Part shown: in pieces, positions 47,961-55,452 of the stretch | Layout: each line of letters opens with the position of its first letter | How positions within the stretch are numbered: the first letter of the stretch is position 1 | Source of the DNA: Myxococcota bacterium | GTDB taxonomy: Bacteria > Myxococcota > B64-G9 | Length of the DNA: 64,000 nucleotides | Assembly: GCA_022710975.1 (NCBI GenBank) | Contig: JAKLGA010000001.1 | Coordinates: forward strand, 310,001-374,000 | Direction of reading: 5' to 3' | Made by a program: the position numbers and the translations under genes | The notes under the pieces: generated by a model | Databases searched by the model: none | Told to the model about the DNA's origin: nothing | The model's input: only the letters and a program-made list of their open reading frames with translations

Positions 47961-48179
47961 GTGCCCATCTACGAGTACGTGTGCTGCAAGTGCGAGCACG
48001 AGTTCGAGGAGCTGGTGTTCGACCGCAGCACGACGCCGCCCTGCCCCAAGTGCGGGGCCACGAAGGTCAAAAAGTGCATGTCGGTCTTCGCCCACAAGAG
48101 CGACTCGGGTTTCACCCCGTCCGCGGGCAAGTCCTCCTGCTCGGGCTGCAGCTCGTCGTCCTGCTCGGGTTGCCATTAG
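47961..48179 (+). CDS. FmdB-family zinc-ribbon protein
   Basis: 72 residues, normal for the family, with a GTG start three bases after the TPR gene stop. It begins PIYEYVCCKCEHEFEEL and has CPKCG at the second half of the zinc ribbon, then KKCMS and a Ser/Cys-rich tail (CSGCSSSSCSGCH). FmdB proteins are small regulators of unknown mechanism. The gene ends at two hairpins that probably stop transcription from both sides. Confidence 0.88.
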   Translation: MPIYEYVCCKCEHEFEELVFDRSTTPPCPKCGATKVKKCMSVFAHKSDSGFTPSAGKSSCSGCSSSSCSGCH

Positions 48180-48246: not shown

Positions 48247-50010
48247 TCACGGGCAGGTCGCCTCGTAGTCCACGCGCACCTGGGAGAAGGCCGGCGGGGT
48301 GTGCTCGGCCGCGAAGCCGATGGCCGGCTGGTCGAGCTCCAGGCTCCAGCCCTGGGCCGGCTGGCCCGCCACCTCCACCCGGACGGTCTCCGGCGCCACG
48401 GGCGCCGCGCCCAGCGGGAAGTGCAGGCGGGCCCCGCTGCTCAGCCCGCCCACCCGCAGGGTGGCGTCGGTGTAGTCCTCCTGGCAGATGGACTCGATCG
48501 CCCCGCCCGTGGCGAGCGCCAGCGCGATCTGGCGGGTGCTGGGGTAGGCCTGGCAGGCGGGCCCCGTGCAGCCCGGGCGGGCGCACACGGTCTGCACGTT
48601 CGCGTGCTCGCTGGTGTCCACGTACTCGATGGTCGTGTCCTCCGGGTGCCCGGGATCGTCCACCCCGGCGATGACCGAGAAGGTCGCCCGCGCAGGGTCG
48701 CCTCCCTTGAGCTCTCGCAGGAACGCGGCGTAGTCCTCCACCGGAGTGAGCCGGTAGGGCAGGCCGGCCACGGGATCCTCGCCCGAACCGTCCGGGCCCT
48801 CGCCCCTGGAGGCGTAGTAGCACACCTTGCCGCCGATCACGGACATGCCCTCGGTCACCTCGCCCACCTCGCCGCAGTCTTCCTCGTCGGTGAAGGACAG
48901 CACCGCCAGGCGGGCGTGTTCGCGCAGGAACCCCTGGTTGGCGACGTCGGCCAGGGGCGCGGAGAGCGCCAGGCGCATGGCGGCCAGTGGCCGTTCGTAG
49001 CCGCAGCCATTCGTGCCCACCAGGGCCACGCTGGACTGGTCCGCCTCGCGCCACAGGCAGTCGAGGTTGTCCCGGGTGATCACCCGGCAAGCGGGATCCC
49101 GGGTGAAGGCGAAGGTCGGCGGCTCGGTGGTCGGGTCGTCGATCCGGCCACGCCGGTCCTGGAAACGGCCGCTCTCGCCGGTCTCGTTGGTGCAGCTCTG
49201 CATGATCAGCCCGTCGCAGGGTGGGCAACCGGGGCACTCGATGCCCGGTGTGATGATCGCGAGGCGGAAGTCGGTCAGGGTGGCCTCGAGGGAGGCGGCC
49301 AGGGCTCTCAGGTTCTGGGCCAGCACGAGCTGGTCCGCGGCCATGGAGCCGCTGCTGTCCACGACGAGCAGGAGGTCGAGCGCCCCGCCGCCGCCCTGGC
49401 TGTACACCTCGGTGCGCGGCTCGCCGGGCTGACACACGTAGGCCGGATCCGCCTGGAGCGGGACCGCGCCCACGGACACGGCCTGGCCCGGGCGCGGGCG
49501 CACCCCGGCGCGCGCCTCGAGCGCGCCCACCGCGGTGGCCACCAGCTCCCAGTCGCCCGCGGGCAGCCCCACCCGGAACCGGCCGGCGTCGTCCGGCCGG
49601 AGCACGAGCGGCGTGCCCTCGACCCGCACCGCGGCCCGGCGCGGGGCCGCGAACTCCAGCCGGCCCTCGATCACCCCCACCCCGGAGAGCAAGAGCTCGC
49701 CCAGGTCCCGCACCCGGTCGCCGGGTAGATCGACCCCTCGGCGAAGGCCGTGGGAGGCGCCCCACAGGGCCACGAGCTGCCGGTCGCGGCCCGACACCGC
49801 GGCGAGCTCGAAGCGGCCGTCGAGATCGGTGGTGGTCACGGCCCGGGGCTCGCCCCGCACGAACACCAGGGCGCCCGGGGCGGGCGCGCCGCCCTGCAGC
49901 AGCCGGCCCGTGAGGGTGCCCTCGCCGTGGTACAGGAAGTCGTTGTCCACCGAACCGCAGCCCGCGGCCAGGGCTGCGACGATCATCCATGCGCCGTGCG
50001 TCCGCGTCAT
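48247..50010 (-). CDS. Von Willebrand factor A lipoprotein with carboxypeptidase-like domains
   Basis: 587 residues. Lipobox LAAGC. Two beta-sandwich domains resembling carboxypeptidase-regulatory repeats (GRLLQGGAPAPGALVFVRGE..., and a second at ~120-200). A vWA domain begins near residue 217 with LLLVVDSSGSM, the MIDAS Asp-x-Ser-x-Ser motif for Mg2+, and is rich in Cys (CPGCPPC, CTNETGESG, CVDTSE-like). vWA domains mediate metal-dependent protein adhesion. It is the last gene of the sigma-factor cassette, 14 bp after the caspase-like gene. GGAGGGAGG precedes the ATG. Confidence 0.82.
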   Translation of the reverse strand: MTRTHGAWMIVAALAAGCGSVDNDFLYHGEGTLTGRLLQGGAPAPGALVFVRGEPRAVTTTDLDGRFELAAVSGRDRQLVALWGASHGLRRGVDLPGDRVRDLGELLLSGVGVIEGRLEFAAPRRAAVRVEGTPLVLRPDDAGRFRVGLPAGDWELVATAVGALEARAGVRPRPGQAVSVGAVPLQADPAYVCQPGEPRTEVYSQGGGGALDLLLVVDSSGSMAADQLVLAQNLRALAASLEATLTDFRLAIITPGIECPGCPPCDGLIMQSCTNETGESGRFQDRRGRIDDPTTEPPTFAFTRDPACRVITRDNLDCLWREADQSSVALVGTNGCGYERPLAAMRLALSAPLADVANQGFLREHARLAVLSFTDEEDCGEVGEVTEGMSVIGGKVCYYASRGEGPDGSGEDPVAGLPYRLTPVEDYAAFLRELKGGDPARATFSVIAGVDDPGHPEDTTIEYVDTSEHANVQTVCARPGCTGPACQAYPSTRQIALALATGGAIESICQEDYTDATLRVGGLSSGARLHFPLGAAPVAPETVRVEVAGQPAQGWSLELDQPAIGFAAEHTPPAFSQVRVDYEATCP

Positions 50011-50024
50011 GGCCTCCCTCCGCG

Positions 50025-51677
50025 TCAGAACCGCCAACCCAGGCCCGCCAGCAGCTCCACGAAGCCCAGGTGGCGGACCGACTCGCCCGCCTGCAGGGCG
50101 AAGTAGTGCAGCCGGGCCTCGAGCTCGAGGACCAGCCCCTCGGCGAGCGCCACCCGCGCGCCGGCCACCAGCCCGCCGGCGAAGTTCCATACCTGCTGGG
50201 TGCGCTCTGCGGGCGAGCGGATCCAGCGCTTCACGTGCAGCCCGGCCAGGCGCGGGCCGAGCAGCAGCTCCACGGGCTCGAGCTCGAAGCGGTAGAGCGC
50301 GCTCAGCCCGTAGTGCCAGGTCAGGCAGTCCTGGTCGAGCGGCGCCCCGGCCTCGGTGAGGCGCTGGCGGGCCCCGCCCAGGCCCACGTCCAGGCGCGTC
50401 TCCAGGGAGGCCACGGGCCAGTCGAGCAGGCTGAGCGACAGATCGGCCAGCCCCAGGTCGCCCACCAGCGAGGCGCGCGTGGCCCCGTCCAGGAAGGTCT
50501 GGTACCCGCCCCGCGCGGCGAGCAGCCAGCGCGGCCGCTCGCGCGAGAGCAGCTCCTCCACCCGGAGCTCGTCCCCCTCGCGGAGCTCGACCTCGCGGTC
50601 GACGAGCGCCCCCTGGGCGCCCGCCTCGCGCAACACCACCCGGTGCGCCCCGGGCTCGAGCACCAGCCGGGCCGGGAGCTCGCCCTTGTCCCGGCCGTCC
50701 ACCTCCACCCGCAGCCCTTGCAGGGAGGGCAGGAAGGAGAACAGCACGGGCTGGCCCGGCCGCGCCCGCTTGCCGGCCAGCACGATGGGATCCGCGCCCA
50801 GCACGCTGGACTCCGCCTGGGGGCGCTGGCGACCGCCGGAGAAGTAGTAGGTGCGCTCCATGGCCCGGGCGTGGGCCTCGGAGGCGGTCACCGCGCCGTC
50901 CCTGTCCGTGTCGCCCTCGCGCAGCGCCTCCAGCAGGAAGGCGGTGTAGATGTCGTGCCCGAGCGCGTCGTCCTCGCGGGCCGTCTCGCCCCAGGCGCAG
51001 GCCGAGAGCACCATGCTGGCCTGGCTGATCTCCTCCAGCGGGCGCACGAAGAAGCCGCTCTTCAGGCCCTGGAGCTCGTCGGCCACCTCGGCGGGCAGGC
51101 CGGACTTGCCCGCGCCCGAGTGGCAGGAGGCCAGCACCAGGGCCTTCCTGCGGGAGGGCAGTCGCTCGAAGTCATCCAGGAGCTCGCGCACCGGCAGCGC
51201 GCTCGTGGGCACGTGGGCCTGGTCGGTGTCGGAGGCGACCAGGTAGCGGGCCAGCGCGCCGTCCGGCCCGCGGGCGAGCGTGCCGTGGGTGGAGAAGTAG
51301 ACCACCAGCGTGTCGGCCGGGCTCTGGTTGGCCTCGGCCAGGCGGTCGAGCGCCGCGCGGATGTCCGCCAGCGGCGTGCCGGCCTCGGCGGCCAGCACCT
51401 CGACCCGGTCGAAGTCTCCCAGCTCTGGCGCCCCGAGCGCCGCGCCCAGCGCGCTGGCGTCCGCGGCCGCGTGCCGCAGCGCCGGCCAGCGCGCGTCCTG
51501 GAAACTGTCGATGCCGACCAGCAGCGCGAGCCGGCGGGGGCCGAGGGCCGCGTCCACCGCCTCGGCGCTCACCCCGGGGAGCGGCTCCAGGCCGCCCTTG
51601 GGGCGCCCGCCCGCGAGGCAGGCGGCCAGCCAGGCGGCGGCGCAGAGCGCCGCCAGGGTGAGCCCGGCGCGCTTCAC
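50025..51677 (-). CDS. Caspase-like (C14) lipoprotein with PEGA and outer-membrane barrel domains
   Basis: 550 residues. GTG start overlapping the anti-sigma stop (GTGA), GGGAGG upstream. Lipobox WLAAC near residue 20. The metacaspase-like domain has RLALLVGIDSF at its first strand, the catalytic His131 (VVYFSTHGTL) and Cys185 (KALVLASCHSG), the canonical dyad. An EF-hand-like DTDRDGAVT loop lies near 270. A PEGA domain follows at ~330-400 (LRVEVDGRDKGELPARLVLEPGAHRV). The last ~170 residues are amphipathic beta strands ending in Phe, like an outer-membrane barrel. Caspase-like peptidases cut after Arg/Lys or acidic residues; specificity here is unknown. Lipidation plus a barrel is an unusual combination. 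Confidence 0.83.
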   Translation of the reverse strand: MKRAGLTLAALCAAAWLAACLAGGRPKGGLEPLPGVSAEAVDAALGPRRLALLVGIDSFQDARWPALRHAAADASALGAALGAPELGDFDRVEVLAAEAGTPLADIRAALDRLAEANQSPADTLVVYFSTHGTLARGPDGALARYLVASDTDQAHVPTSALPVRELLDDFERLPSRRKALVLASCHSGAGKSGLPAEVADELQGLKSGFFVRPLEEISQASMVLSACAWGETAREDDALGHDIYTAFLLEALREGDTDRDGAVTASEAHARAMERTYYFSGGRQRPQAESSVLGADPIVLAGKRARPGQPVLFSFLPSLQGLRVEVDGRDKGELPARLVLEPGAHRVVLREAGAQGALVDREVELREGDELRVEELLSRERPRWLLAARGGYQTFLDGATRASLVGDLGLADLSLSLLDWPVASLETRLDVGLGGARQRLTEAGAPLDQDCLTWHYGLSALYRFELEPVELLLGPRLAGLHVKRWIRSPAERTQQVWNFAGGLVAGARVALAEGLVLELEARLHYFALQAGESVRHLGFVELLAGLGWRF

Positions 51678-52498
51678 GGATCGCCTCCCAGCACCTCGAC
51701 GGCGGCCAGCGCGTGGCCGAAGGGGAGCGTGCCCGAGTCCGGCTCCGCGCCGGCGGCCAGCGCGCGGGCGAGCGGCGCGAGGGCCGCGGGCAGGTCGAGC
51801 GGCCTGGCCGAGCAGGTGGCCACGAACACCTGGCGTCCGCGCAGCCCCGCCAGCGGCAGCCCCAGGCTGGCGGCGCCCGGCACCCCACCCGCCGTGGGGG
51901 TGTGCACCCCCGGGCCGAGCTCGAGGGGCGCCCCGGGCGGCTCGGGCAGCAGCGGCGCGATGGCCCCGTCCGGGCCGAGGCGCGCCAGGCCCAGGTGGCA
52001 GCGCTCGCGGAGGGTGATCTGGAACACCAGGGTGCGGTCCTGGGGCAGGCGGGCGTCCGCTCCGAGCCGGGTGATCTGGGCCTCGCCCTGCCCGCCGCGG
52101 ACCACCACCCCCAGGGCGAGGCCGATTTCGGGCACCCCGCCGGGGCCCTTGATCCGCTGGCCCGGCCCGGGCGGCGCGGGCGGCGCCGGCAGCCACAGCC
52201 ACGCCAGGAGCCCGAGCGCGACCGCGGCGACCGGCGCCAGCCAGGCCAGGCGCCACCAGGCGGGCCGGGAGAGGGCGCGCTCGACCGCCTCCGCCGGGAG
52301 CCGCGCCGCGGGCGCGGCCTCGGCCCGGGCCAGGAGCCCGATCAGCGCGGCCTCGTCCTCGGCCGGGAGCTCGGCCAGGGCGGCCTCGCAGGTGTCGCAG
52401 CCGGCGGCCAGGTGGGCGGCCAGCGCGCGCTCCTCCTCCGGCGTGAGCCCGCCCAGGAGCAGCGCCTGCAGGCGCGCGCGGTCGAGGTGCGCGCTCAC
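51674..52498 (-). CDS. Zinc-finger anti-sigma factor with a DUF4384-like periplasmic domain
   Basis: 274 residues. The N-terminal ~45 residues carry a zinc-finger-like HLAAGCDTC motif (H-x4-C-x2-C; the classical ZAS motif has H-x3-C). One membrane segment follows at ~84-105 (LAWLAPVAAVALGLLAWLWL), then a beta-rich extracytoplasmic domain with TLVFQITLRERCHLGLARLGPDGAI that resembles DUF4384. It should bind and inhibit the ECF sigma factor encoded just upstream and release it upon an envelope signal. Start GTG overlaps the sigma gene stop. Confidence 0.75.
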   Translation of the reverse strand: MSAHLDRARLQALLLGGLTPEEERALAAHLAAGCDTCEAALAELPAEDEAALIGLLARAEAAPAARLPAEAVERALSRPAWWRLAWLAPVAAVALGLLAWLWLPAPPAPPGPGQRIKGPGGVPEIGLALGVVVRGGQGEAQITRLGADARLPQDRTLVFQITLRERCHLGLARLGPDGAIAPLLPEPPGAPLELGPGVHTPTAGGVPGAASLGLPLAGLRGRQVFVATCSARPLDLPAALAPLARALAAGAEPDSGTLPFGHALAAVEVLGGDP

Positions 52499-53076
52499 GG
52501 GCTGGCCTCCCCCGTGCGCAGCGCGAGCACGCGCTGGATCAGGCGGGCGCGCAGCCTGGCGCGCAGGCGGAACAGCCAGGTGGACACCGTGCCCTGGGGC
52601 ACCCCCAGGCGCGCGGCGATCTCCGCCGTGTCCAGCCCGTCCAGGTAGTACAGCCGGCCGGCCTGCTTCGGGCCGGAGTCCTCCAGGCGCGCGAGCTCCT
52701 CGGCCACCACGGCCTGCTCGGCCTCGCGCTGCCTGGCGGCTCCGACCGGGTCCTCCCGGGTGGCCAGCTCCTGGGCGAAGGCCTCGAGCGCCCGGCGCTG
52801 GCGTCCGAGCTGGCCGAGGTGAGTCAGGCAGCGGCCGCGGGCGATGGCGAACAGCCAGCCCTCGAAGCGCGCGGGCTCGCGCAGGCCGCCAAGCCCGCGC
52901 AGCGCGCGCACCAGCGTGTCCTGGGCCAGATCCATGGCGTCGGCCTCCCGGATGGCGGGGAAGCTCAGGCAGAAGCGCACCACGCGCCTGTGGTAGCGCG
53001 CGGCCAGCGCCTCGGCGGCGGGCCGCTCCCCTCGCCGGGTGCCCTCCACCAGGGCGATGAGCTCCCCATCGACCAT
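52495..53076 (-). CDS. ECF-type RNA polymerase sigma factor
   Basis: 193 residues. Sigma region 2 covers ~10-85 (RYHRRVVRFCLSFPAIREADAMDLAQDTLVRALRG in overlapping parts, with FEGWLFAIARGRCLTHL in region 2.4). Region 4 is at ~130-190 with a helix-turn-helix TAEIAARLGVPQGTVSTWLFRLRARLR. Absence of regions 1 and 3 marks it as an ECF sigma. It should read the cassette's own promoter or other surface-protein promoters. The start is uncertain: Met at 53076 fits the domain, while an in-frame GTG at 53121 overlaps the protease gene. Neither has a good ribosome binding site. Confidence 0.87.
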   Translation of the reverse strand: MVDGELIALVEGTRRGERPAAEALAARYHRRVVRFCLSFPAIREADAMDLAQDTLVRALRGLGGLREPARFEGWLFAIARGRCLTHLGQLGRQRRALEAFAQELATREDPVGAARQREAEQAVVAEELARLEDSGPKQAGRLYYLDGLDTAEIAARLGVPQGTVSTWLFRLRARLRARLIQRVLALRTGEASP

Positions 53077-53110
53077 CCGACCGGTAGACCCCCTCACCCC
53101 CGGCGCCGTT

Positions 53111-55417
53111 TCAGCGGGCACGGCGGCCGAGCCCGGCCAGCCCGAGCGCCGAGAGCAGGAGCGCGGGCCCGCCGCCGAGCGCGCCGGCCGAGGCGCAGCC
53201 GCCGTCCCGTCCGAAGTCCGGATCGCTGGCCTCCTGGTAGGAGCGCGCCACCCTGAGCTCCGGGGCGGCGCTGAAGGGCTCGCCGCCCGCGGCGCAGCGC
53301 AGCGCGAGCACGCGGCCGCGCGGGACCGCCGCCCGGAGCGCGCGCAGGTACAGCCCGTCCCCGCGGTCCTCGACCGGCCCGTCGAAGGCGGCGCCGTCGG
53401 CCTCGATGGTGATCGGCAGGCCCGGCCCCGCGTTCAGCCCGGCCGCGTCCCGGGGTACGGCCACGGCCCACACCCGCGAGCCGTCGTCCGGCAGCCACAG
53501 CTCGCTCGCGCCGCACAGCCCCTCGGCCTCCGCGGGCGCCCCGCCGGGCTCGCCCGCGCCCAGGCCGAGCAGGCGCGCTGCCTCGGCCTTGCCCAGGCCC
53601 CAGCCGGGCTCGAACAGCGCCCGGCCGGTGTCCGCGTCGGCCAGCCCGCCCAGCTCGAGCAGCGCCCGCAGCTCGGCGCCGGTGCGCTCCGGGTCCTGCT
53701 CCAGGAGCAGCGCCATCAGGCCGGTGGCGAAGGGCGCGGCCATGCTGGTGCCCGAGCCCAGCGCGTGCCGGCCGTCGGGCAGCACCAGGCGCAGGCTGCC
53801 GCCGGCGTAGAACATGCTGGCGGGCGTGCGCGGATCGGCGTCCGCGGAAAGGCTGGAGGCCACCGCCACCCCCGGGGCCGTGAGCGTCGGGCTCAGGCGC
53901 CCGTCGCGTGTGGGGCCGCGGGTGGAGAAGGAGGCCAGCGCGCCCGGCGGCACGCCGGTCAGGTGGACCTCGCCCACGGCGTCGGTCCAGTCCGTGCGGT
54001 GGTGCCGTGCGGCCACCGCCACCGCGTCCGCGGCCGTGGCCGGGGGCCCCACCATGGTGCCCGGATCCTGGTGATCGACGAAGCGCGGGAGGGGCGTGCC
54101 CAGCAGGTCCAGCTCGCCGATCCAGGCGTCCAGGCGGCCGGCGCTGCCGCGGACCACCAGGGCCCAGTCGCCGAGCTCCAGGGGCGCGCCGGCCTCGCCC
54201 GAGAGGGTGAGCGTGGTGCGCCACAAGCCGCTCTCGGGCGCCGCCTCCGCGGCCGCCACGAGCTGCACCCGGCCGTAGGTGTCGCGCTGGTCCACGGCCA
54301 GGTTCGGGCCGCGCCCCGAGACCGGCTCGCTCCGCGCCCCGGCCGGGCTCTCCACGCGCACCTCGAGCGCCGCGTCGTGCCACAGGTCCACCACCACCCG
54401 CGCGGGCCGGTCGGGGCTGGGCGGCTCGGCCTCGGCCACCCGCAGCCCGAGGCGCAGCTCGTCCGCGACGGGCGCGCGGGCGTGCAGCCAGAGCTGGCCC
54501 TCGTTGCCGGCCGCCACGGCCACCCCGCACCTGGGCGCGCTCCCGCGCGCGAGCTGGGTGAGCGCCAGCTCCACGGCCTCGCTGCCGTTGTGGGCGCCCA
54601 TCTGGCTGCCCAGGCTGAGGTTGAGCGCCACCGGCGCGCCCTCCAGGCGCGCGGCCTCGGCCACGAAGGCCAGCGCCCGCAGCACGCGCGCCTCGTCGAA
54701 GCCCGTGTCCCCCGCGCCCATGGCCTTGACCGCCACCAGGCGCGCGCCCGGGGCCACGCCCGCGTACAGCGGGTCGTCCCCGGCGGCGACGCCGGCCACG
54801 TGGGTGCCGTGGCCGAAGGTGTCCCGGCCCGCGCCCAGGGCCGCCCCGGACTGGCCGTCGAGCGCGGCCTGCAGCTCGGCCGCGGAGAACACCGCCCCGC
54901 CGCCGAGCGCCTCGAGCTCGGGGTGCAGCCCGGCGGCCGGCAGCGTCTGATCGAGCAGCCAGGCCACCCGGGTCTGGCCGGCCGGGTCCAGGAAGTCGGG
55001 GTGGCCCCAGTCCAGGCCGGTGTCCACCAGGGCCACCAGCACCCCCTGGCCGGTGAGCCTGTAGCTCGCCCGGGCCTCGGGCAGGCGCAGGGAGGCTCCG
55101 GCCTGCTCGAGCCGCGGGCGGAACCGACCCGGGCGATCCACCCGCCTGAGGCCGGGCCGGGCGAGCAGGGCGGGCAGCGCGGCGCGCGGCCACACCAGCG
55201 CGCAGGCCCGGCCCACGCACACGGCCCCCGCGGGCGCCTGCCCGGGCGCGTCCCAGGTGGTGACGAGCTGACCGGGGTCGGCCTCGCGCAGGCCGGGCCG
55301 GTCCCCGGCCGCGCGCAGCTCGAGCGCCAGGCGCGGGCCCAGCACGGGGCCGGCCCGGGCCGCCCCCGCGAGCAGCAGGCCCGTTCCCAGACACGCGAGC
55401 AGGCGCGCGCGACGCAT
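53111..55417 (-). CDS. Subtilisin-family (S8) secreted protease with MYXO-CTERM-like tail
   Basis: 768 residues. The signal peptide ends ARAG. The catalytic triad is intact: Asp132 (VALVDTGLDWGHPD), His203 (FGHGTHVAGVAAG) and Ser558 (GSGTSMAAPFATG). A ~150-residue insertion between Asn and Ser blocks (about 320-480) is beta-rich, as in PA/Fn3-bearing subtilases. The C-terminus ends in a GGC motif, a hydrophobic stretch (ALLLSALGLAGL) and GRRAR, the pattern of MYXO-CTERM sorting tails, which predicts outer-surface anchoring. The ATG has no ribosome binding site. A promoter (55424-55452) places the transcript start exactly at this ATG. First gene of the sigma-factor cassette. Confidence 0.88.
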   Translation of the reverse strand: MRRARLLACLGTGLLLAGAARAGPVLGPRLALELRAAGDRPGLREADPGQLVTTWDAPGQAPAGAVCVGRACALVWPRAALPALLARPGLRRVDRPGRFRPRLEQAGASLRLPEARASYRLTGQGVLVALVDTGLDWGHPDFLDPAGQTRVAWLLDQTLPAAGLHPELEALGGGAVFSAAELQAALDGQSGAALGAGRDTFGHGTHVAGVAAGDDPLYAGVAPGARLVAVKAMGAGDTGFDEARVLRALAFVAEAARLEGAPVALNLSLGSQMGAHNGSEAVELALTQLARGSAPRCGVAVAAGNEGQLWLHARAPVADELRLGLRVAEAEPPSPDRPARVVVDLWHDAALEVRVESPAGARSEPVSGRGPNLAVDQRDTYGRVQLVAAAEAAPESGLWRTTLTLSGEAGAPLELGDWALVVRGSAGRLDAWIGELDLLGTPLPRFVDHQDPGTMVGPPATAADAVAVAARHHRTDWTDAVGEVHLTGVPPGALASFSTRGPTRDGRLSPTLTAPGVAVASSLSADADPRTPASMFYAGGSLRLVLPDGRHALGSGTSMAAPFATGLMALLLEQDPERTGAELRALLELGGLADADTGRALFEPGWGLGKAEAARLLGLGAGEPGGAPAEAEGLCGASELWLPDDGSRVWAVAVPRDAAGLNAGPGLPITIEADGAAFDGPVEDRGDGLYLRALRAAVPRGRVLALRCAAGGEPFSAAPELRVARSYQEASDPDFGRDGGCASAGALGGGPALLLSALGLAGLGRRAR

Positions 55418-55423
55418 GGCCCG

Positions 55424-55452
55424 ATCATCCCCCAGCCCGCCCCCGCCGGCAA
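55424..55452 (-). promoter_or_regulatory. Promoter of the subtilisin-sigma-caspase cassette, leaderless candidate
   Basis: On the minus strand TTGCCG (55452-55447), 17 bp and GATGAT (55429-55424). The six bases after the -10 end directly at the ATG of the protease gene, so the mRNA would start at the first codon. No ribosome binding site is present, which agrees with leaderless translation. Confidence 0.45.

Follow-up and report, generated by a model that had tools for sequence, protein, structure and literature searches.

A conserved sigma factor, anti-sigma factor and caspase-lipoprotein operon in Myxococcota and its proposed action as an envelope switch

The locus and its four-gene unit

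The subject of this report is a minus-strand operon in a 64-kb stretch of DNA (positions 310,001 to 374,000 of contig JAKLGA010000001.1, assembly GCA_022710975.1; hereafter the window, to which all coordinates refer), part of a 7.1-Mb genome whose closest relatives are deltaproteobacterial or Myxococcota metagenome-assembled genomes. Five minus-strand open reading frames were confirmed there, encoding an S8 subtilase, an extracytoplasmic function (ECF) sigma factor, an anti-sigma factor, a caspase-family lipoprotein and a lipoprotein with a vWA domain (Table 1). The original prediction had described these genes, in this order, as one cassette with two GTGA stop-start overlaps and short gaps, and both the open reading frames and the profile matches agree with it after slight correction of the coordinates: the sigma and anti-sigma genes overlap by 4 nucleotides (nt), GTGA, at 52495-52498, the anti-sigma and caspase genes by the same 4 nt at 51674-51677, and the gaps amount to 34 nt between the S8 and sigma genes and 14 nt between the caspase and vWA genes. 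The true unit, however, is composed of four genes, namely those for the sigma factor, the anti-sigma factor, the caspase-PEGA-barrel lipoprotein and the vWA lipoprotein, with the S8 subtilase outside it.

Table 1. Genes and predicted elements of the operon and its surroundings
Feature	Coordinates	Strand	Evidence or remarks
S8 subtilase	53111-55417	-	PF00082, E 8e-32
Predicted ECF-type autoregulatory promoter, GAAACG-N15-GGGTC	53087..53112	-	-35 overlaps S8 stop codon; sigma ATG 10 nt further on
ECF sigma factor, 193 residues	52495-53076	-	Pfam Sigma70_r2 PF04542 1.2e-14, r4_2 PF08281 1.6e-9; TIGR02937 82 bits, cut-off 42.9
Anti-sigma factor, 274 residues	51674-52498	-	zf-HC2-like H29/C34/C37; membrane helix 85-101; linker 102-124; periplasmic beta domain 125-270 (DUF4384-like)
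Anti-sigma K117-G118, predicted scissile K|G in juxtamembrane periplasmic linker	52145..52150	-	
C14 caspase-family lipoprotein, 550 residues	50025-51677	-	PF00656 6.7e-14, PEGA 0.004, lipobox LAAC
Caspase domains			lipobox Cys20; catalytic 48-300 (H131, C185); PEGA-like 310-372; 8-strand outer-membrane barrel 384-549
Caspase K27-G28, predicted auto-release site in the linker from lipid anchor to catalytic domain	51594..51599	-	
Caspase K206-S207, predicted activation site in disordered p20/p10 loop	51057..51062	-	
Caspase EF-hand-like acidic loop D256-E267 (DTDRDGAVTASE), p10 part	50877..50912	-	possible Ca2+ site
vWA lipoprotein with CarboxypepD_reg-like domains, 587 residues (operon gene 4)	48247-50010	-	PF13620 4e-10; metal ion-dependent adhesion site (MIDAS) DSSGSM
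Small FmdB-like zinc-ribbon open reading frame	47961-48179	+	convergent with operon end

The sigma factor falls in the ECF class, with matches to sigma regions 2 and 4 and none to regions 1 and 3 among the Pfam and TIGR profiles. The product of the next gene has the layout of an anti-sigma factor, with a single membrane helix, a C-terminal domain whose export is inferred, and a gene that overlaps that of the ECF sigma factor. Its AlphaFold2 (AF2) model, with a predicted local distance difference test (pLDDT) score of 84, comprises zinc-finger-like helices, the membrane helix, an unstructured linker and a beta domain, with the boundaries given in Table 1; a fold search with this model found nothing significant (best E 0.011). 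Among 36 family members, Pfam zf-HC2 is matched in 8 (best E 4e-4) and DUF4384 in 5, and H29, C34 and C37 are kept in at least 90% of the 36-44 members aligned.

The caspase-family protein has the features of a peptidase C14 of the orthocaspase type, namely a PF00656 match, a His-Cys dyad and a MALT1/metacaspase fold. The catalytic dyad is intact in all 41 sequences compared. The PEGA domain and barrel that had been noted earlier were both recovered, the former as a Pfam match and the latter in the AF2 model (pLDDT 88), which consists of an N-terminal helix, the caspase domain, the PEGA-like domain and a barrel of exactly eight strands, and has low-confidence stretches at residues 22-29 (pLDDT <50), 189-194 and 204-218. 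In Foldseek searches, the MALT1 paracaspase and a yeast metacaspase were nearest to the caspase part, and OmpA, NspA and OmpX to the barrel. A barrel of this type with an even number of strands has its two ends in the periplasm, and the caspase domain is accordingly expected on the periplasmic side, a placement that we infer from the predicted signal and lipobox together with the eight-stranded barrel. For gene 4, the model for the gliding motility lipoprotein CglD (NF033765) gave only 28.5 bits against a curated cut-off of 400.

Matches to the whole length of the caspase, C-terminal barrel included, were obtained in 103 of 193 Myxococcota genomes. The order sigma, anti-sigma, caspase is kept in nearly all of 40 relative loci from other genomes, 4-nt overlaps are frequent there, and a CarboxypepD_reg lipoprotein gene usually lies downstream of the caspase gene; in all five closest relatives the gene 4 orthologue occupies the same position (in one it is cut by the contig end). 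Recurrence of the sigma and caspase pair in distant Myxococcota genomes, which the original prediction had proposed as its own test, proved strongly positive. Caspase patterns alone, run against 84,980 named species, returned 78 loci, a set that overlaps the 40, and among the 71 in which the caspase was called and enough upstream sequence was present, the sigma gene is adjacent to and co-directional with the caspase gene in 70 (64 from gene calls, the rest from tblastn, which recovered sigma genes missed by the gene caller in some loci). These include loci of Myxococcus xanthus, Corallococcus, Archangium and Anaeromyxobacter; the single exception (L139) has a divergent sigma gene. Several diverged copies of the system occur per genome, and most full-length anti-sigma relatives in ten genomes adjoin a caspase. 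Within the window's own genome, three further caspases (L173, L174 and L175; G000:C12 and C23) adjoin an ECF/zinc-finger pair. At L173 the order is altered to caspase, unknown gene, ECF, anti-sigma.

A very improbable arrangement is the one originally proposed, in which all five genes are read from a promoter at 55424-55452 and the subtilase and caspase together execute or shut down the response. The S8 and sigma genes do lie on the same strand and close together, but no S8 gene was matched beside the caspases of the 40 relative loci, the S8 orthologues of five relatives (about 43-51% identical) stand at other loci with no sigma, anti-sigma or caspase gene found nearby, S8 and sigma are separated by a conserved promoter-like element, and no other genome showed the two genes side by side. 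The S8 gene was therefore rejected as a member of the module, and the idea of two linked proteases fails with it. The genes upstream of sigma vary by genome and include those for a xanthine/uracil permease, an MscS channel, an LPG synthase-like protein and a subtilase (e.g. L031:7086-8429 and L034:16343-17410), which supports the view that the module begins at the sigma promoter. As for the MYXO-CTERM-like tail ascribed to the subtilase, it is plausible by eye, and no NCBIfam model matched it.

The predicted promoter and its targets

No sigma-70-like site was found at 55424-55452. A conserved element is present instead at 53087-53112, starting within the S8 stop codon, and S8 thus lies upstream of the operon's own predicted promoter. 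In its family form, GARACN-N15-GGGTC, this element precedes the sigma gene in 6/6 loci of the window's family, and it has a single match in the window, where 0.42 would be expected by chance. A counterpart at the same place in Myxococcaceae, GTGGCC-N15-GGGTC, occurs in 19 of 75 upstream regions (0.43 expected), and Corallococcus has it in front of two neighbouring lipoprotein genes as well; it was not found near the window operon. As a definer of a regulon in six Myxococcaceae genomes the counterpart was rejected, being no commoner than a reversed control.

In the window's own genome, the strict form TGARAC-N16-GGGTCT has two perfect matches. One belongs to this operon, and the other lies 72 nt upstream of a gene for a vWA lipoprotein that is 49% identical to gene 4 over the vWA part. 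Homologous vWA lipoprotein genes in three relatives are preceded, at a distance of 37-71 nt, by sites of the family form that depart from it at no more than one position; for most of the other near-matches in the relatives, no target gene is evident. These patterns are good evidence that the sigma factor is probably autoregulated and that vWA lipoproteins are among its putative targets, and they give the sigma factor a named candidate promoter and its first putative regulon members.

A shared basic-Gly motif and a candidate switch

The anti-sigma linker carries the feature on which the proposed mechanism turns. Lys117 is invariant in alignments of 36 and of 44 members (36/36 and 44/44) and Gly118 nearly so, in a family whose mean column identity is just 26-28%, and the surrounding region is unstructured in the AF2 model (pLDDT ~55). 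Across 110 caspase-linked anti-sigma factors the motif reads KG in 103, RG in 4, KA in 2 and RSG in 1, and a basic residue is thus present in 110/110. KG is no general trait of zinc-finger anti-sigma factors, a candidate explanation ruled out by controls: none of 15 membrane-helix zinc-finger proteins from other genomes has it, and elsewhere in the window's own genome only 2 of 19 zf-HC2 matches carry KG after the helix, both of which adjoin other caspases, while the remaining 17 (a few of them with no nearby membrane helix) yield 0/17.

The same kind of motif recurs in the linkers of the caspase. KG lies within 30 residues of the lipobox in all 68 orthologues with a recognised lipobox, and Lys206 is invariant in 51/51 caspases, with Gly (16), Ser (12), Ala (10) or Thr (1) as the next residue. 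In a sister subfamily of non-lipoprotein caspases that are likewise tied to sigma/anti-sigma pairs, KG stands exactly at catalytic Cys+9 in every member with a located active site outside one clade, here termed the Arg clade, and KG or RG stands at the pre-barrel junction in most members. Within the Arg clade, Arg is found at Cys+9 in 30/30 and RG at the pre-barrel junction in 30/30, and RG is found in nearly all callable anti-sigma factors. Orthocaspases are reported to cleave after positively charged residues (PMC6426788), and cleavage after Lys or Arg is indirectly predicted for these caspases from their conserved K/R-G linkers. The EF-hand-like loop has invariant D256, G261 and E267, and EF-hand Pfam matches among the caspase relatives are weak.

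From these patterns we consider it probable, if by no means assured, that the unit works as a caspase-triggered envelope sigma switch, in which the caspase would act as site-1 protease on the anti-sigma factor, with a predicted cut at K117|G118. The caspase domain would be held in the periplasm via its lipid anchor, its eight-stranded outer-membrane barrel or both, and the barrel may sense the envelope or the exterior. A signal, possibly Ca2+ acting through the EF-hand-like loop, would activate the caspase, which would cut its own linkers after Lys (or, in one clade, Arg) and so free itself from its anchors; envelope stress or prey contact, as proposed in the original prediction, would be hypothetical signals. 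The activated enzyme would then cut the anti-sigma factor some 16 residues out from the membrane helix, an intramembrane protease would complete release of the sigma factor, and the freed sigma factor would transcribe its own operon, in positive feedback, together with genes for vWA-domain surface lipoproteins. The direction assumed in the original prediction is then probably reversed, with the caspase as an activator that cuts the anti-sigma factor, beyond any part as executor or off-switch.

Several observations weigh against such a switch. An Asp two residues before the catalytic Cys helps to form the basic S1 pocket in MALT1 and metacaspases, and the window caspase has Ala183 at that position. 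The Hx4CxxC motif of the window anti-sigma factor scores below the cut-off for Pfam zf-HC2 (E 0.046). On the tree of caspases the Lys/Arg difference appears as one change, so the concordance between enzyme and anti-sigma factor counts as one concerted event and many independent switches are ruled out, and at one locus (L257) the anti-sigma factor has RG while its caspase loop keeps KG. Finally, strict limitation of KG to caspase-adjacent anti-sigma factors is ruled out: those at L242 and L244-246 keep KG beside a barrel-only secreted protein that apparently lacks the caspase half, and at L237:3390-7164 a KG anti-sigma and ECF pair is followed by matrixin (M10) metalloproteases, with no adjacent caspase in either case. 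KG in such loci could be ancestral or serve another protease. The secreted matrixins at L237, two in number, have MYXO-CTERM-like tails and stand where the caspase would be. The genomes of L242, L244, L245 and L246 also hold orphan caspases (L271, L275 and others), and the combination of a barrel-only operon and an orphan caspase in one genome suggests a split or trans-acting version of the system.

The caspase-less loci are also among the grounds for a different reading, which we regard as possible but doubtful, namely that the sigma factor induces the caspase and is not triggered by it. The sigma/anti-sigma pair would then sense the envelope in some other way, the caspase would process surface proteins (e.g. 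gene 4) or lyse the cell, and the KG site would be cut by another site-1 protease or be an ancestral remnant. The position of the caspase gene within the predicted sigma-controlled operon fits this account, as does programmed cell death, the role proposed in PMC3501461. It fares less well with the occurrence of the same basic-Gly motif in the caspase linkers and the anti-sigma factor, where Lys and Arg differ in concert, with the absence of KG from the control zinc-finger membrane proteins outside the family, and with the orphan caspases in genomes that have barrel-only operons.

Still less likely is a structural or trafficking role for KG with no link to proteolysis, for instance as a membrane-exit turn or a lipoprotein sorting element, in genes that are merely co-regulated. 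Such a reading can point to the retention of KG in some members of the anti-sigma family that have no adjacent caspase, and to the fact that sequence conservation is no proof of cleavage. AF2, however, places the KG of both the anti-sigma factor and the caspase in unstructured linkers, which makes a folding role less likely; moreover, two proteins carry the motif in linkers that are not homologous, the two caspase subfamilies carry it in different linkers, and the identity of its basic residue shifts in concert. Extended beyond the window, the candidate caspase-triggered switch becomes a broader proposal, that Myxococcota possess parallel, paralogous envelope systems in which barrel-anchored outer-membrane caspases would serve as ECF site-1 proteases, with one K/R|G code in enzyme and anti-sigma factor, in signalling and not in death; we judge this wider proposal as apt to fail as to hold.

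Relation to known systems

Caspase homologues are abundant in the multicellular, predatory myxobacteria, where their role has usually been guessed to be programmed cell death. If the proposed switch is correct, myxobacterial caspases would have a concrete residue-level task other than cell death, the cutting of a single Lys-Gly bond of the anti-sigma factor, the repeated sigma-caspase pairing known since 2012 would be explained, and a caspase-family member would join the proteases that start the release of envelope sigma factors. The pairing itself was described by Asplund-Samuelsson et al. (2012, PMC3501461), who report sigma-70/metacaspase operons in Myxococcus xanthus (four of them), Anaeromyxobacter, Haliangium and Sorangium, and also in Ralstonia and Fibrobacter. 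This is the same gene association as that of the window unit. In the part of the 2012 account considered, only the shared sigma factor is mentioned, and neither an anti-sigma linkage, a KG motif, a barrel, a promoter nor a mechanism is given; a full-text literature search of partial coverage found no mechanism for the sigma-metacaspase operon. New here are the anti-sigma/caspase Lys-Gly signature and the family-conserved promoter before the sigma and vWA lipoprotein genes.

Two other groupings resemble parts of the system. In the ECF54 group, whose genomic context includes subtilase, carboxypeptidase and CHAT genes, proteolytic control has been proposed in the absence of an anti-sigma factor (PMC8999054). 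Proteases adjoin the ECF sigma gene in both cases, but membership in ECF54 was rejected, as an anti-sigma gene is adjacent in nearly all loci here and the subtilase is incidental. With the MALT1 paracaspase and the metacaspases, enzymes that cut after basic residues, the window protein shares the catalytic fold (best Foldseek matches) and the His-Cys dyad; it differs in being bacterial and exported, in its PEGA-like domain and OmpA-type barrel, and in the Ala that replaces Asp at Cys-2 in the window's subfamily.

Mechanistically, the closest precedents are DegS-RseA and the CRISPR-associated Csx29-Csx30-CASP-sigma system. Like the DegS-RseA-RseP/sigma-E pathway, the window unit features a single-pass anti-sigma factor with a cytoplasmic sigma-binding end, a periplasmic domain and a predicted cut just outside the membrane, but the predicted site-1 protease is here a C14 caspase-family outer-membrane protein encoded in the same operon and directed at a Lys/Arg-Gly site. 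In the Csx29-Csx30-CASP-sigma system, a caspase-fold protease cuts the inhibitor of an ECF-type sigma factor that autoregulates its locus (PMC10028731). That protease is an RNA-triggered TPR-CHAT protein bound to Cas7-11, whereas the one described here is exported and carries a barrel. No TPR match was obtained in the window caspase, and no Cas gene was recognised among the scanned neighbours, where no Cas-specific search was made; as a PF00656 caspase with a PEGA-like domain, a barrel and no TPR match, the window protein was rejected as a member of the Csx29 group, with which it would share the cutting of an ECF sigma inhibitor by a caspase-fold protease.

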